A DNA stretch of 64,000 nucleotides from assembly GCF_900095825.1 (NCBI RefSeq), contig NZ_LT608315.1, positions 2,233,875-2,297,874 of the forward strand. Direction: 5' to 3'. The stretch is from Acidaminococcus massiliensis (GTDB lineage: Bacteria > Bacillota > Negativicutes > Acidaminococcales > Acidaminococcaceae). Shown one piece after another: positions 34,273 to 39,643 of the stretch. Numbering within the stretch: the first letter of the stretch is position 1; each line of letters starts with the position of its first letter. The notes beneath the pieces are model-generated. The model was not told the DNA's origin and ran no database searches. It saw only the letters and a program-made list of their open reading frames with translations. Both the position numbers and the translations under genes were made by a program.

Positions 34273-35051
34273 CTGGAAAAGGAGCGGGCTGCTTCAAACA
34301 TCACGATTCCCCCGGCCACGGCCACGTTCAGGCTTTCGGCCTGGCCGGCCATAGGGATCTTCACCTTCTGGTCCGCAGCGGCGAGGATCTCCGGGGAGAC
34401 CCCTTCCGCCTCACTGCCCAGTACCAGGGCGGTCTTTGCCGGCCACTGGAGCTTCGTCACGTCTTCCGCCCCTTCCAGGGCCGTAGCCCATAGGGCGTAT
34501 CCGTTTTTCCTGCACCAGGTTTCCATTTCCCCAGCCTTGACTCCAGTGTACACCGGCAGATGGAACAAGGACCCCATGGTGGACCGGACCACTTTGGGAT
34601 TATACAGGTCGGCGGTATCTTCCAGCAGCACCACCCCAGCTGCCCCCAGGGCGTCGGCGGTGCGGATCAGGGTCCCCAGGTTCCCCGGGTCCCGGATCTG
34701 ATCCAGCACCAGCACAAGCCCCCGCTCCGGGGCAAAGCTGTCCAGATTTTCCTGGCGGATCTCCACCAGGGCCGCCACGCTCTGGGGGTCTTCCGTAGCT
34801 GTGATCTTCTGGAGCACCGGCAGGGGCACTTCATACCAGGGCAGAGCGCTTTCTTCCGCCCGGCGTTCCCAGCCTTCCGGCAGCCGGGTAAAGAAGAGGG
34901 CCCGGAGTGTCCAGCGAGAAGCAAGGGCTTCTTCCACTGCCCGTTTCCCTTCCAGCAGGAACAAGCCCTCCTTCTGGCGGTATTTTTTCATTTTCAGGGA
35001 AGCTGCCCGCTTCACCAGATCATTCTTCAACGATGTCAGGGTGCTGATCAT
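34269..35051 (-). CDS. SpoU/TrmH-family RNA 2'-O-methyltransferase
   Basis: 260 residues with an N-terminal substrate-binding domain (KNDLVKRAASLKMKKYRQKEGLFLLEG) and the SPOUT knot: motif 1 LDQIRDPGNLGTLIRTADA, motif 2 ALVLGSEAEGVS, motif 3 KIPMAGQAESLNVAVAGGI. Methylates a ribose in rRNA or tRNA using S-adenosylmethionine; the site cannot be told from sequence. Its ATG overlaps the ktrA stop by four bases. Often next to a tRNA synthetase gene in Firmicutes (there pheST). Confidence 0.88.
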   Translation of the reverse strand: MISTLTSLKNDLVKRAASLKMKKYRQKEGLFLLEGKRAVEEALASRWTLRALFFTRLPEGWERRAEESALPWYEVPLPVLQKITATEDPQSVAALVEIRQENLDSFAPERGLVLVLDQIRDPGNLGTLIRTADALGAAGVVLLEDTADLYNPKVVRSTMGSLFHLPVYTGVKAGEMETWCRKNGYALWATALEGAEDVTKLQWPAKTALVLGSEAEGVSPEILAAADQKVKIPMAGQAESLNVAVAGGIVMFEAARSFSS

Positions 35052-35707
35052 ATGCCGTCCTCCAGGGCTTCCACGCTTTTCCGGCTGCCGATGACCACCA
35101 GCAGATCCCCTTCCAGGAGGGGCTTGGTGGGTTCCAAGGTCATTTCCGTGGTACCGTCCGCATGCTTGATGGCCACCACATTCACCTGGTATTTCTTCCG
35201 CACATCCAGTTCTGCCAGGCTCTTCCCTACCACCTTCCGGGTCAGGTTCACTTCCATGAGGCAGATGTTGTCAGAGAGTTCCACGAAATCCAAGATGTTG
35301 GTATAGGCCAAGTTGTGGCCCACCCGGCGGCCCATGTCCCGTTCCGGATAGATGATCTTGGTAGCCCCCAATTTTTCCAGCATCTTCCCATGGAGGGCAT
35401 TGGAGGCCTTGGCCACAATGGTCTTCAGCCCCGCTTCCCGGAGCAGCATGGTAGCCAGGAGGCTGGGTTCCAAGGTCCCGATGGCCACGATCCCTACATC
35501 GAAATTCCGGATGCCCAGGCTGTTCACGGTCTTTTCGTCGATCACATCGCAGACCACTGCATGGGTCAATTTGTCCGCCATGTTTTCCACTACATCTTCA
35601 TTGTTGTCGATGCCCAGAACCTCATGGCCCAGGGCCGTCAGGGTCTCTGCCACACTGCTGCCGAAGCGGCCCAGCCCCCAGACGATAAATTGCCGTTTGT
35701 CTTTCAT
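35048..35707 (-). CDS. ktrA: Potassium uptake regulatory subunit (KtrA/TrkA type, RCK)
   Basis: 219 residues: RCK N-domain with nucleotide-binding VWGLGRFGSSVAE and the acidic residue in EVLGIDNN (about 1-130), then RCK C-domain (about 135-219, VNLTRKVVGKSLAEL). It forms the cytosolic ring gating KtrB. Coded 9 bp after ktrB on the same strand and overlapping the methyltransferase gene downstream. Confidence 0.92.
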   Translation of the reverse strand: MKDKRQFIVWGLGRFGSSVAETLTALGHEVLGIDNNEDVVENMADKLTHAVVCDVIDEKTVNSLGIRNFDVGIVAIGTLEPSLLATMLLREAGLKTIVAKASNALHGKMLEKLGATKIIYPERDMGRRVGHNLAYTNILDFVELSDNICLMEVNLTRKVVGKSLAELDVRKKYQVNVVAIKHADGTTEMTLEPTKPLLEGDLLVVIGSRKSVEALEDGI

Positions 35708-35715
35708 GATGACTC

Positions 35716-37044
35716 CTAACCGATGATGATATTTTCCTTGGGATAATGGATGTGTCCCGAAGGCTTGTTGGCCGCCAAGGCCAGGGCAAAGGTCATGAAC
35801 CCCACCCGCCCGGCATACATGGACAGGATCAGGATGATCTTGCTGGCGGTACAGATATGCTGGCTGAGCCCGGTGGAAAGCCCCACTGTGGCATAGGCCG
35901 AGACCACTTCAAAAGCCGCCGCCAGGAAGGTGGTATCTTCCAGGCAGGTAAGGGCCAGGATGGCGAATACCACCCACAAAAGGGACATGCTGGTAATGGC
36001 AAAAGCCTGGAACATGGTCTCGCTGGTGATCCGCCGCCCGAAGATCTCACATTCCCCCCGGCCCCGGACCACCTGCCAGATGTTCAGGAGCAGCAGGGCA
36101 AAGGTGGTGGTCTTGATGCCGCCCCCAGTAGATGCCGGTGACGCTCCGATGAACATGAGCAGGATGGTGAAGATCATGGTGGGGACCCGGAGACTGTTCA
36201 GGTCCACCGTGTTGAAGCCCGCTGTCCGGGGGCTCACCGACTGCATGAAACTGGCCCAGAAGGCGTCGTTCCAAGAAAGTCCGGCCAAGGTTCCCGGATT
36301 GTCTTTTTCCAACAGGGCAAATCCCACCATGCCACCCACGATCAAAAGGATCGTACTGGTCAGGACCATCTTGCTGTGGAGCTTCAGTTTCCGGAAATCC
36401 CGGTTCTTCACCACATCCCGCATGACTGCGAACCCCAGCCCTCCCAGGATGATGAGGAAGCAGATGGACAGGTTCACCACCGGGTCCCCCACATAGGCCG
36501 TCAGGCTCTGGTAGTGGCCGAACAAATCGAAGCCAGCGTTGCAGAAGGCGGAAACCGCATGCCAGTACCCGTAGTAAATCCCTCGGATCCCATACTGGGG
36601 CCAAAATCGGAGGGCCAATACTGTACCGAAGAAGCCCTCGATCACCGCTGTGTATTTGGCGATCCGCAGGCTCATCCGCACCACCCCATCCAGTTCATCT
36701 TGGTTCAGGGAAGCTTGGATGTTGAGCCGGGACTGGAGATCGATCTTTTTCCGCAGGAGCACCGAGAAAAGGGTGGCGAAGAGTACCAGCCCCAGACCTC
36801 CCAGCTGGATCAGGGCAATGATCACCAATTGGCCGAAGGTGGAAAAATACGTCCCTGTATCCACCACAATGAGCCCGGTGACGCAGGAGGCGGAAGTAGC
36901 GGTGAAAAGGGCGTCCACAAAGGACAGGGAAGACCCTTCTGCACTGGAAAAGGGCAGCATCAGCAAAAGAGCTCCAGCCAGGATCAGCCCGGCAAAAGTC
37001 AGGGCGATCAGCTGGGAGGGAGAAAAATGTCTGATCTGGTTCAA
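35716..37044 (-). CDS. ktrB: Potassium uptake channel subunit (KtrB/TrkH type)
   Basis: 442 residues, about ten membrane segments. The four selectivity-filter repeats are recognisable: TSASCVTGLIVVDTG, AVSAFCNAGFDLFG, SVSPRTAGFNTVDL and SAYATVGLSTGLS, each centred on the conserved glycine. Na+- or K+-driven K+ entry with KtrA. The gene starts 12 bp after the FMN oxidoreductase gene, so all four genes down to the methyltransferase look like one transcript. Confidence 0.92.
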   Translation of the reverse strand: MNQIRHFSPSQLIALTFAGLILAGALLLMLPFSSAEGSSLSFVDALFTATSASCVTGLIVVDTGTYFSTFGQLVIIALIQLGGLGLVLFATLFSVLLRKKIDLQSRLNIQASLNQDELDGVVRMSLRIAKYTAVIEGFFGTVLALRFWPQYGIRGIYYGYWHAVSAFCNAGFDLFGHYQSLTAYVGDPVVNLSICFLIILGGLGFAVMRDVVKNRDFRKLKLHSKMVLTSTILLIVGGMVGFALLEKDNPGTLAGLSWNDAFWASFMQSVSPRTAGFNTVDLNSLRVPTMIFTILLMFIGASPASTGGGIKTTTFALLLLNIWQVVRGRGECEIFGRRITSETMFQAFAITSMSLLWVVFAILALTCLEDTTFLAAAFEVVSAYATVGLSTGLSQHICTASKIILILSMYAGRVGFMTFALALAANKPSGHIHYPKENIIIG

Positions 37045-37056
37045 GACCCCTCCACC

Positions 37057-38070
37057 TTATTTCCGGACCATTTCCCTGGTGATTTCTTGGAGAGAAGCGG
37101 CCCCGCACATTTCCATGGTGTCTGCCAGCTCAGCCCCCAATTTGGCTGCCAGGAGCCCAGCGCCTTCTTTGCCGCCCCCATAGACCGCATTGACGAAAGG
37201 ACGGGCGATGAGCACCGCATCGGCCCCCAGGGCCAGGGCTTTGAATACATCCACCCCGCTGCGGATGCCCCCATCCACGAAGATCTTCAGGGTGCCGCCC
37301 ACCGCCTGAGCGATTTCTTCCAGCACTTCCGCCGTTGCCGGGCTCTGGTCCAACACCCGGCCCCCGTGGTTGGACACCACGATGGCTGCCGCGCCGGCTT
37401 CCCGGGCCTTCAGGGCCCCTTTGACGCTCATGATCCCTTTGATGATGAAGGGCAGACCAGCATCTTTGATGATGGCCTTCATTTCCTCCACGGATTTGCT
37501 CCCCGCAGGAGGCACGAAGTTCTTCAGGAAGGGCAGACCGGCTGCATCTACGTCCATGGCCACCGCAAAGGCTCCGGATTTTTTCACCAATTCCATTTTT
37601 TCGGCAATCATCTGGGCATTCCAAGGCTTCACCGTAGGTACCCCCACGCCTCCGCAGGCTTTGATGGCGTCCGTGGCTCCCTGCATCACCATGGGATCCA
37701 TGCCGTCACCGGTGAAAGCGGCAATGCCGGCTTCTGCACAGCCGGGCACCAGTTCCGCATTGTAGGTCACATCATTGTATTTGTCGCTGTAATGCATGGC
37801 CACAGCCCCCACCGGGCCGGCAAAGATCGGATATTTGAAGGAGCGGCCGAACAGTTCGATAGAAGTATCCACCGGCCGTTTCTCACAGAGGGTATCCATG
37901 ACGACCCGGACTTCCTGCCATTTGGCATAGTTCCGGATGGCTGTATCCCCCACTCCTTTGGCACCGGGCCCCGGGATGGTATTCCGGCAGGCGACCCCGT
38001 TGCACACCGGGCATCCCTTGCATTTTCCCAGACACTTTCTGGCATTTTCCATGACTTCCTTGAAATCCAT
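37057..38070 (-). CDS. FMN-dependent alpha-hydroxy-acid dehydrogenase-like protein with N-terminal cysteine cluster
   Basis: 337 residues from ATG 38070 (GGGGAG upstream). The TIM-barrel part has GLPFIIKGIMSVKGALKA (FMN-binding Lys), VVSNHGGRVLDQSPAT (active-site His and Arg) and IFVDGGIRSGVDVFKALALGAD, as in lactate/glycolate oxidases and type 2 isopentenyl-diphosphate isomerase. The N-terminus has CLGKCKGCPVCNGVAC, five cysteines in 16 residues, a feature of a clostridial subgroup. An iron-sulfur or metal site is likely but unproven; substrate unknown. Confidence 0.75.
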   Translation of the reverse strand: MDFKEVMENARKCLGKCKGCPVCNGVACRNTIPGPGAKGVGDTAIRNYAKWQEVRVVMDTLCEKRPVDTSIELFGRSFKYPIFAGPVGAVAMHYSDKYNDVTYNAELVPGCAEAGIAAFTGDGMDPMVMQGATDAIKACGGVGVPTVKPWNAQMIAEKMELVKKSGAFAVAMDVDAAGLPFLKNFVPPAGSKSVEEMKAIIKDAGLPFIIKGIMSVKGALKAREAGAAAIVVSNHGGRVLDQSPATAEVLEEIAQAVGGTLKIFVDGGIRSGVDVFKALALGADAVLIARPFVNAVYGGGKEGAGLLAAKLGAELADTMEMCGAASLQEITREMVRK

Positions 38071-38194
38071 ACCTGTCACTCCCCTGTGTATAAAGAGGCA
38101 AAGCCTCTTAGATTCGATTCCTATTATACCACATTGCAGCCCTGGGATTAGTGATTAAGTGGTTTTCTTCCCTCTGCACTCTTCACTTTATCCC
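38071..38194. other. Intergenic region between the FMN oxidoreductase and the decarboxylase subunit
   Basis: Divergent region. TATAATAGG on the minus strand (reverse of about 38119-38127) is a likely minus-10 for the oxidoreductase-ktrBA operon. A short AAAGCCTCTTAGA / AGAGGCAAAGC stretch lies at 38090-38110. No gene. Confidence 0.4.
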
Positions 38195-38223
38195 TTGCAC
38201 TTCCCCCAAAAATACGCTATAAT
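38195..38223 (+). promoter_or_regulatory. Sigma-70 promoter of the decarboxylase beta-subunit transcript
   Basis: Minus-35 TTGCAC (38195-38200), 17-bp spacer, minus-10 TATAAT (38218-38223). Transcript start near 38230, giving a leader of about 126 bases. Confidence 0.75.
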
Positions 38224-38229
38224 ACCCAT

Positions 38230-38317
38230 ACCAATTGGATAGTCCCTTCCTGCGGATGGCACAGGGGTAGGAAGGATCATGAGGACCTGGCATTGTAAAA
38301 TGTCCGGTCCTCTTTTT
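38230..38317 (+). ncRNA. Candidate cis-regulatory leader RNA with terminator, upstream of the decarboxylase beta subunit
   Basis: Between promoter and gene lies a hairpin CCTTCCT/AGGAAGG (38245-38251 with 38269-38275) enclosing TGCGGATGGCACAGGGGT, then an intrinsic terminator GAGGACCTGGCATT, loop GTAA, AATGTCCGGTCCTC (38281-38312) followed by TTTTT. A terminator placed before the only downstream gene means transcription is probably attenuated. I do not recognise a named riboswitch class; a Na+-sensing element is tempting because the gene is a Na+ pump, but this is inference. Confidence 0.6.
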
Positions 38318-38355
38318 AATGTTCTACCTGGCACATTCTATGATGAGGTGATTGT

Positions 38356-39507
38356 ATGTCAAACGCAAGCAGAGTCTTTCAAGAATTGTTCGCCGGTGTC
38401 ATCGGCATGGGCGACTGGACCGTCTGGGTCATGCTGGCCATCGGCGCCCTGCTGATCTGGCTGGGGGTCCGCAAGGGATACGAACCGGTCCTATTGTTCC
38501 CCATGGGGGTGGGTTGCATCCTGGCCAATATCCCCGGTCATTTCGCCGTGATGCCCACCAGCGGCGGAGAACCTGGCTTCCTGACCGTCCTGTATCAGAT
38601 GGGGATCGCCAATGAGCTGTTCCCGGTGCTGATCTTCATCGGGATCGGCGCCATGTGTGACTTCACCCCCCTGCTCCGGGCCCCCTACATGATGCTGTTC
38701 GCTGCGGCTGCCCATCTGGGGATCTTCGCCGCCACCCTCTGTGCAGCCCTGGCAGGTTTCCCCTTCAATGAAGCTGCTTCCATCGGCATCATCGGAGCCG
38801 CCGACGGCCCCACCACCATCTTCGTGGCCCAGAAATTTGCCACCGAGATGTTGGCGCCCCTGACAGTCACCGCCTTCTGCTACATGTCCCTGGTGCCCAT
38901 CATCCAGCCTCCCGTAGTAAAGCTGCTGACCACCAAGGAAGAACGACTGATCCGGATGCCCTATCAGGAAGAAAAGCCCGTCTCCCAGGCAGCCCTCTTC
39001 CTGTTCCCGCTTATGGTCACCCTGATTGCCGGGATCATCGCCCCCATCTCCGTACCCCTGATCGGAGCCCTGATGTTCGGGAACCTGCTGAAAGTGTCCG
39101 GCTGCTGTGACAGCCTGTCCAACTGTGCCCAGAATGAACTGACCAACCTGGTGACCCTGCTCCTGGGGATCACCGTAGGAGCCACCATGACCGCGGAAAA
39201 CATCCTGACCCTCCAGGTCCTGAAGATCCTGGCCCTGGGTGCGGTAGCTTTCGTATTCGATACGGTGGGAGGCCTCTTATTCGCCAAACTGGCCAACTTG
39301 TTCCTGAAGAAAAAGATCAATCCCATGATCGGGGCCTGCGGCATTTCCGCTTTCCCCATCTCCGGACGGGTCATCTCCAAAATGGCCTTGAAGGAAGATC
39401 CTACCAATTTCATCATCCAGCAGGCCATCGGCGTGAATGTGGCCGGTCAGGTAGCCAGCGTGGTTGCCGGCGGCCTGGTCATGGCCCTGATCCCTGTGCT
39501 CATGTAA
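38356..39507 (+). CDS. Na+-translocating decarboxylase beta subunit
   Basis: 383 residues, about eleven membrane segments, the family of oxaloacetate (OadB), methylmalonyl-CoA and glutaconyl-CoA (GcdB) decarboxylases. It couples decarboxylation of carboxybiotin to Na+ export. The essential Asp is in SIGIIGAADGPTTIFVAQ, and the second polar region is NCAQNELTNLV with CGISAFPISGRVISKM. SD GAGGTG precedes ATG 38356. No alpha or biotin-carrier gene is adjacent, only a tiny membrane protein. In Acidaminococcus glutaconyl-CoA decarboxylase would be the expected partner. Confidence 0.88.
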   Translation: MSNASRVFQELFAGVIGMGDWTVWVMLAIGALLIWLGVRKGYEPVLLFPMGVGCILANIPGHFAVMPTSGGEPGFLTVLYQMGIANELFPVLIFIGIGAMCDFTPLLRAPYMMLFAAAAHLGIFAATLCAALAGFPFNEAASIGIIGAADGPTTIFVAQKFATEMLAPLTVTAFCYMSLVPIIQPPVVKLLTTKEERLIRMPYQEEKPVSQAALFLFPLMVTLIAGIIAPISVPLIGALMFGNLLKVSGCCDSLSNCAQNELTNLVTLLLGITVGATMTAENILTLQVLKILALGAVAFVFDTVGGLLFAKLANLFLKKKINPMIGACGISAFPISGRVISKMALKEDPTNFIIQQAIGVNVAGQVASVVAGGLVMALIPVLM

Positions 39508-39520
39508 AGGAGGCAAAGAG

Positions 39521-39643
39521 ATGGATTCCGTTACCGCATCTTTGGAACTGCTCATCATCGCTTATCCCCTGGTGTTCGTGGTCATGGCCCTTTTCGCCGG
39601 CCTGACCTGGGGCTTGACCAAACTGTTCCCGGCGAAAGAATGA
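39521..39643 (+). CDS. 40-residue single-span membrane protein (OadG-like small subunit candidate)
   Basis: A short frame starting MDSVTASLELLIIAYPLVFV, one membrane segment (about residues 9-32) and a basic/acidic end LTKLFPAKE. The start at 39521 has AAAGGAGG seven bases upstream and begins 13 bp after the beta subunit stop; a terminator overlaps its stop. Gamma/delta subunits of these pumps are small single-span proteins that hold the complex together, usually with a longer soluble tail. This one lacks the tail, so the assignment is by context. Confidence 0.7.
   Translation: MDSVTASLELLIIAYPLVFVVMALFAGLTWGLTKLFPAKE

Follow-up and report, generated by a model that had tools for sequence, protein, structure and literature searches.

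In Na+-translocating decarboxylases, the membrane motor is the beta subunit. In Acidaminococcus massiliensis, one gene for such a subunit is preceded by a short region with hairpins (38195-38355 of the 64,000-nucleotide stretch analysed, hereafter the window), naturally raising the question of whether this region is a regulatory RNA and to which class it might belong. The original prediction placed a promoter, a structured stretch and an intrinsic terminator ahead of the start codon, and we found all three there.

Architecture of the leader

All features lie on the forward strand. The promoter (38195-38223) is of the sigma-70 type, with TTGCAC at 38195-38200 and TATAAT at 38218-38223 separated by a 17-nt spacer, and it scored 9/12 in a direct scan; TTGCAC itself scores 3/6, below the minimum of 4 in the standard consensus scan, and the promoter is absent from that scan's list. 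The direct scan revealed the same type of promoter, TTGCNN-17-TATAAT/TATACT, in 6/6 Acidaminococcus genomes. A promoter 5' of the RNA is thus clear in Acidaminococcus, and it is clear in only some Dialister. From the position of the boxes, transcription is expected to start near 38230. The 5' flank TGGATA (38236-38241) is kept in Acidaminococcus only (as TGCATA in G008) and not in Dialister, according to alignments A1-A4.

The flank is followed by a hairpin, P1 (38245-38275), whose 9-bp covarying stem is formed by the strands CCTTCCTGC (38245-38253) and GTAGGAAGG (38267-38275) and closes the loop GGATGGCACAGGG (38254-38266). The near-invariant segment C-G-K-AUGGCAC-R-GGGG (38253-38267), defined by its conservation in 11 genomes, is the putative sensor or binding site. 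An intrinsic terminator (38281-38317) comes next, recognised from sequence and fold, with a hairpin at 38281-38312 (arms GAGGACC-T-GGCATT and AATGTC-C-GGTCCTC) and a run of five T at 38313-38317; ACCUGG in its 5' arm (38285-38290) is 100% conserved. Between the terminator and the Shine-Dalgarno sequence GAGGTG (38345-38350) the terminator-arm sequence recurs as ACCTGGCAC / ACCTGGCA (38326-38334) and could there pair with the 3' arm of the terminator or compete for the P1 loop; this CCTGGCA copy occurs in 5/6 Acidaminococcus leaders and is missing in Dialister. For the 94-nt leader the folding energy is -35.8 kcal/mol, compared with -25.2 +/- 3.5 kcal/mol for shuffled sequences (z -3.1).

The beta gene starts at 38356, only 38 nt beyond the T-run, and a promoter between terminator and gene is therefore unlikely in the window. 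In Dialister G324 the Shine-Dalgarno sequence follows the T-run directly (TTTTTTTTGAGGAGGAGGTTTTATG), with about 14 nt to the start codon, so that upstream transcripts must read through the terminator. A start site 3' of the terminator, named beforehand as an observation that would speak against a regulatory leader, is consequently implausible in at least these two loci. In G326 the gene begins about 280 nt past the terminator, and a promoter-like TATAAT is present in the gap.

Conservation and inheritance with the beta gene

A covariance model of the six Acidaminococcus leaders (R1), run over 380 Negativicutes genomes, retrieved the RNA from 11 of them, six Acidaminococcus (99-111 bits) and five Dialister, which belong to another family (50-73 bits). 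The next matches scored no more than 32 bits, and those inspected proved to be ordinary terminators. A mismatch-free P1 motif with its flanks is confined to these 11 genomes, and by both R1 and the P1 motif pattern each genome has one real copy, with no sign of further copies or a regulon. A pattern scan of genome and viral contigs gave, among the matches listed, two that stand out, Dialister sp. UBA1703 and A. provencensis; apart from these two members, the matches listed were chance matches without a stem. A second model (R2) added no new member from 398 genomes of the phylum, its best match reaching 38 bits and its matches being ordinary terminators where inspected, and the RNA was not found in the plasmids and phages searched.

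The covariation check proposed with the original prediction bore it out, since both hairpins persist, with compensating changes, not only among close relatives but also in a second order. Alignment A4 comprises 11 sequences and 22 pairs in two helices, P1 and the terminator, and 98.3% of its cells are standard pairs. Seven pairs are changed on both sides, three in P1, where 99% of cells are paired, and four in the terminator; these changes cover 18 cells, compared with 7.0 +/- 2.1 cells in shuffled alignments, and 0/500 shuffles reach the observed covariation. As the 11 sequences are related, the pair counts are inflated and lean towards the structure derived from them, yet slid-register controls, which keep the relatedness, still differ strongly from the true pairing, the signal being lost when partner columns are slid by 1-3. 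The P1 loop is identical across the 11 genomes except at the K and R positions, and between Acidaminococcus and Dialister identity amounts to 94% in the P1 loop and 100% in ACCUGG, compared with 9% in the linker and 38% in the 5' flank. Stem letters that vary while pairing is kept, together with a nearly fixed loop, are the signature of an RNA site that would be sensed or bound, a pattern of conservation for which a plain terminator has no need. The element is a real, conserved leader RNA of no assigned class, which arose once and is known from two host genera.

The RNA is exclusively associated with one gene. It lies directly 5' of an orthologous beta gene in 11/11 genomes, the beta genes being 77-100% identical and followed, in the loci examined, by a gene for a 40-aa protein, and all 11 genomes among the 380 with a beta gene at least 77% identical have it. 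It is absent from the 32 genomes among the 380 with only a 66-71% identical homologue, and also from G002, G003, G005 and G323, which belong to the same genera and lack the gene. Among those 32 is the sister genus g93, in which as many as three beta copies occur and whose leaders are unrelated by eye. In the gene tree, the RNA-bearing beta genes form one branch (support 100/99) with Acidaminococcus nested among Dialister next to G326, a placement supported at only 80/83. Given this nesting within one branch, the RNA and the gene most likely moved as a unit from a Dialister-like donor to Acidaminococcus. The gene upstream is a divergent FMN-dependent dehydrogenase gene in Acidaminococcus and a co-directional gene for a 103-aa membrane protein in Dialister; since upstream genes and promoters thus differ between the two genera, the element belongs to the downstream gene, and RNA and gene appear to have entered a new promoter context together. 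As a side observation, 35048-38079 contains TrkA- and TrkH-like genes for K+ uptake as well as a gene like those of FMN-dependent alpha-hydroxyacid dehydrogenases; all are divergent from the leader, and their order is kept in other Acidaminococcus.

The gene itself (38356-39507) encodes an orphan beta subunit of the OadB/MmdB type (383 aa; Pfam OAD_beta 8.6e-139; TIGR01109), about 70% identical to relatives' beta subunits whose genes directly follow a biotin-carrier gene. Directly 3' of it, tblastn revealed an unannotated gene (39521-39643) for the 40-aa protein, which has a single transmembrane segment and no Pfam family. In Acidaminococcus and Dialister, tblastn placed this protein behind the orphan beta gene at each of the RNA-bearing loci examined; it is also found behind mmdB of other Negativicutes and is possibly a small pump subunit.

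In relatives such as G009, a 67-70% identical gene follows mmdA and the biotin-carrier gene near methylmalonyl-CoA mutase genes. The mmd region of Dialister G322, G324 and G327 and of the sister genus g93 consists of mutase, mmdA and carrier genes, and the stretch fetched there has no beta gene; by inference, the Dialister orphan gene likely encodes the beta subunit of the succinate-to-propionate Na+ pump, and thus appears to provide what the mmd operon lacks. Acidaminococcus gave no match to methylmalonyl-CoA mutase and has its own mmdA-like, carrier and beta set (G000:C4:899591-903148, beta 46% identical), so the orphan subunit may serve another complex there. In the mmd regions of Dialister and g93 (L316, L317, L318 and L321), where the stretch fetched is without a beta subunit, the beta genes lie elsewhere as orphans. 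A Dialister relative (L292, G329:C10) has three beta copies, each with a 40-aa partner; an apparent dicarboxylate transporter adjoins two of these copies, and the copies' leaders differ from the RNA. In Dialister sp. UBA1703 (L261), several OadB paralogues adjoin CitMHS-type transporters, with no other decarboxylase subunits noticed nearby.

Proposed control of the pump subunit and rival readings

The terminator lies between promoter and start codon, as in an attenuator, and the covarying structure, the near-invariant unpaired nucleotides and the attachment to one gene family are the general marks of a riboswitch. These findings support the riboswitch or attenuator layout proposed originally, and the element is a good riboswitch candidate. 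We read it, with a probability of roughly 0.6, as an attenuator of transcription that acts in cis and whose class is absent from Rfam; its P1 loop would be the sensing site, and it would control the beta subunit of the Na+ pump. RNA polymerase starting at the 38195-38223 promoter would produce a leader with P1 and then the intrinsic terminator, a partner bound to the P1 loop would decide whether the terminator forms, and the outcome would determine production of the beta subunit of the biotin-dependent pump and of its 40-aa partner.

The most economical coupling would be a contact from loop to terminator, in which CRGG of the P1 loop pairs with CCUG of the terminator 5' arm as a putative pseudoknot. 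This pairing is available in 11/11 sequences (44/44 cells), the change at R giving a G-U pair. However, a column-shuffled alignment contains several 4-bp stems by chance, and we therefore treat the pseudoknot as a hypothesis only. Pseudoknot-free prefix folds contained no antiterminator, P1 and terminator standing side by side, and alternative pairings against the terminator amounted to short candidates, of a kind that column-shuffled alignments also give. Two other folds were rejected. An outer helix P0 around P1 appeared in some prefix folds (G004, G008, G001 and G324) at differing positions and is not general. A slipped hairpin, UUCCUG/CAGGGG, is pairable in most sequences; it was discarded as the main fold because P1 covaries and its pairing in G008 is poor, mostly G-U with an A-C mismatch.

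What the loop would recognise is the point at which the readings diverge; the signals named in the original prediction, Na+, a CoA ester or a trans-acting factor, are guesses. Recognition of the P1 loop hairpin by a trans-acting RNA-binding protein, which would make the leader an attenuator without direct ligand binding, we regard as unlikely. Protein sites, too, usually take the form of one hairpin whose loop does not vary, and the element has no second domain or junction, yet the same protein would be needed in Acidaminococcus and in Dialister after the transfer, a motif present once per genome would call for a protein dedicated to one site, and no candidate gene travels along except that of the 40-aa membrane protein. 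With one copy per genome and a loop kept across a transfer between orders, we prefer a ligand-binding RNA to a protein site, and a small-molecule or ion aptamer, riboswitch-like, would be the likeliest sensor, the preference being modest. The element is thus probably a small riboswitch-like one of an undescribed class. We more tentatively propose, at somewhat under even odds, that it represents a new and very small riboswitch class whose hairpin docks on its own terminator and senses a metabolite or ion of the succinate-to-propionate or Na+-pump pathway (e.g. Na+, biotin or a CoA thioester), and which was transferred between orders with the pump gene.

Promoter, hairpin and terminator are equally the anatomy of a stand-alone sRNA of about 88 nt that would act in trans with the beta gene as a mere neighbour, for which the long spacing and promoter-like box in G326 would also speak. 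We hold this to be improbable, as the RNA stands directly 5' of the same gene in 11/11 genomes despite the differing upstream gene, was apparently co-transferred with that gene, and abuts the Shine-Dalgarno sequence with its T-run in G324. Terminators 5' of genes can simply damp transcription, and folding gives no antiterminator, both as expected of a constitutive terminator or insulator without sensing in which P1 only stabilises the RNA; but the loops of plain terminators and stability hairpins are free to drift, whereas few parts of the element are as conserved as the P1 loop, which makes this reading very improbable. Some species have ATG-AGG-ACC-TGG-CAT-TGA together with an SD-like 3' strand of P1, which would suit a ribosome-mediated attenuator with a leader peptide. 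To this reading we assign almost no probability: G004, G008 and every Dialister lack the ORF start, and the frame is not conserved. As a general mechanism a leader peptide is refuted, the short ORF over the terminator not being conserved.

If the attenuator carries the aptamer that we favour, the energy metabolism of an anaerobe would have a new class of sensor for Na+, biotin or CoA esters. The class is tiny and easily tested, with one hairpin, one terminator and 11 natural variants.

Comparison with known RNA classes

The original prediction did not recognise the class, which agrees with our searches: Rfam 15, with the Na+ and Li+ classes included, gave no match in the window at gathering level and no credible one at E up to 10, and none in eight other homologous loci at E up to 5. 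We found no description of the leader in the full-text papers searched; motifs published elsewhere or only in supplements could be missed. The T-box string UGGNAC resembles UGGCAC in the P1 loop, which is a lead only; unlike in a T-box, the leader here is too short for a specifier stem (stem I), and the T-box Rfam model had no match in the window (E up to 10) or the eight loci (E up to 5).

Some oxaloacetate decarboxylase genes are among the targets of Na+-I riboswitches (PMC9337991), and sodium would therefore be a natural candidate signal. The Na+-I class (DUF1646 motif) likewise is a terminator-controlled leader before Na+-related genes, but it has conserved nucleotides in the loop of P2 and at the P1 base (PMC9337991), whereas the present element has one hairpin and a terminator; the Na+-I covariance model matched neither the window (E up to 10) nor the eight homologous loci (E up to 5). 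The Li+ riboswitches (nhaA-I/II) are similar as leader RNAs that control cation-transport genes (PMC9646797). They differ in the gene controlled, and the nhaA-I and nhaA-II models gave no match in the window (E up to 10) or the eight loci (E up to 5). The nqrA-II motif is also a riboswitch candidate before a Na+ pump gene, but it has four stem-loops and belongs to the NADH:quinone oxidoreductase of Pasteurellaceae (PMC11109978). The gltD and ldh2 motifs are rare riboswitch candidates of the Negativicutes, the bacterial class of the present element; they precede other genes, and ldh2 has a three-stem junction (PMC8632094). The HMP-PP riboswitch (thiS motif) resembles the element in being very compact, with an unusually conserved terminator sequence and a loop pseudoknot (PMC6478431), the pseudoknot here being putative; the element has no Rfam match to it, and while the HMP-PP aptamer sits inside the terminator, here a separate P1 comes first.
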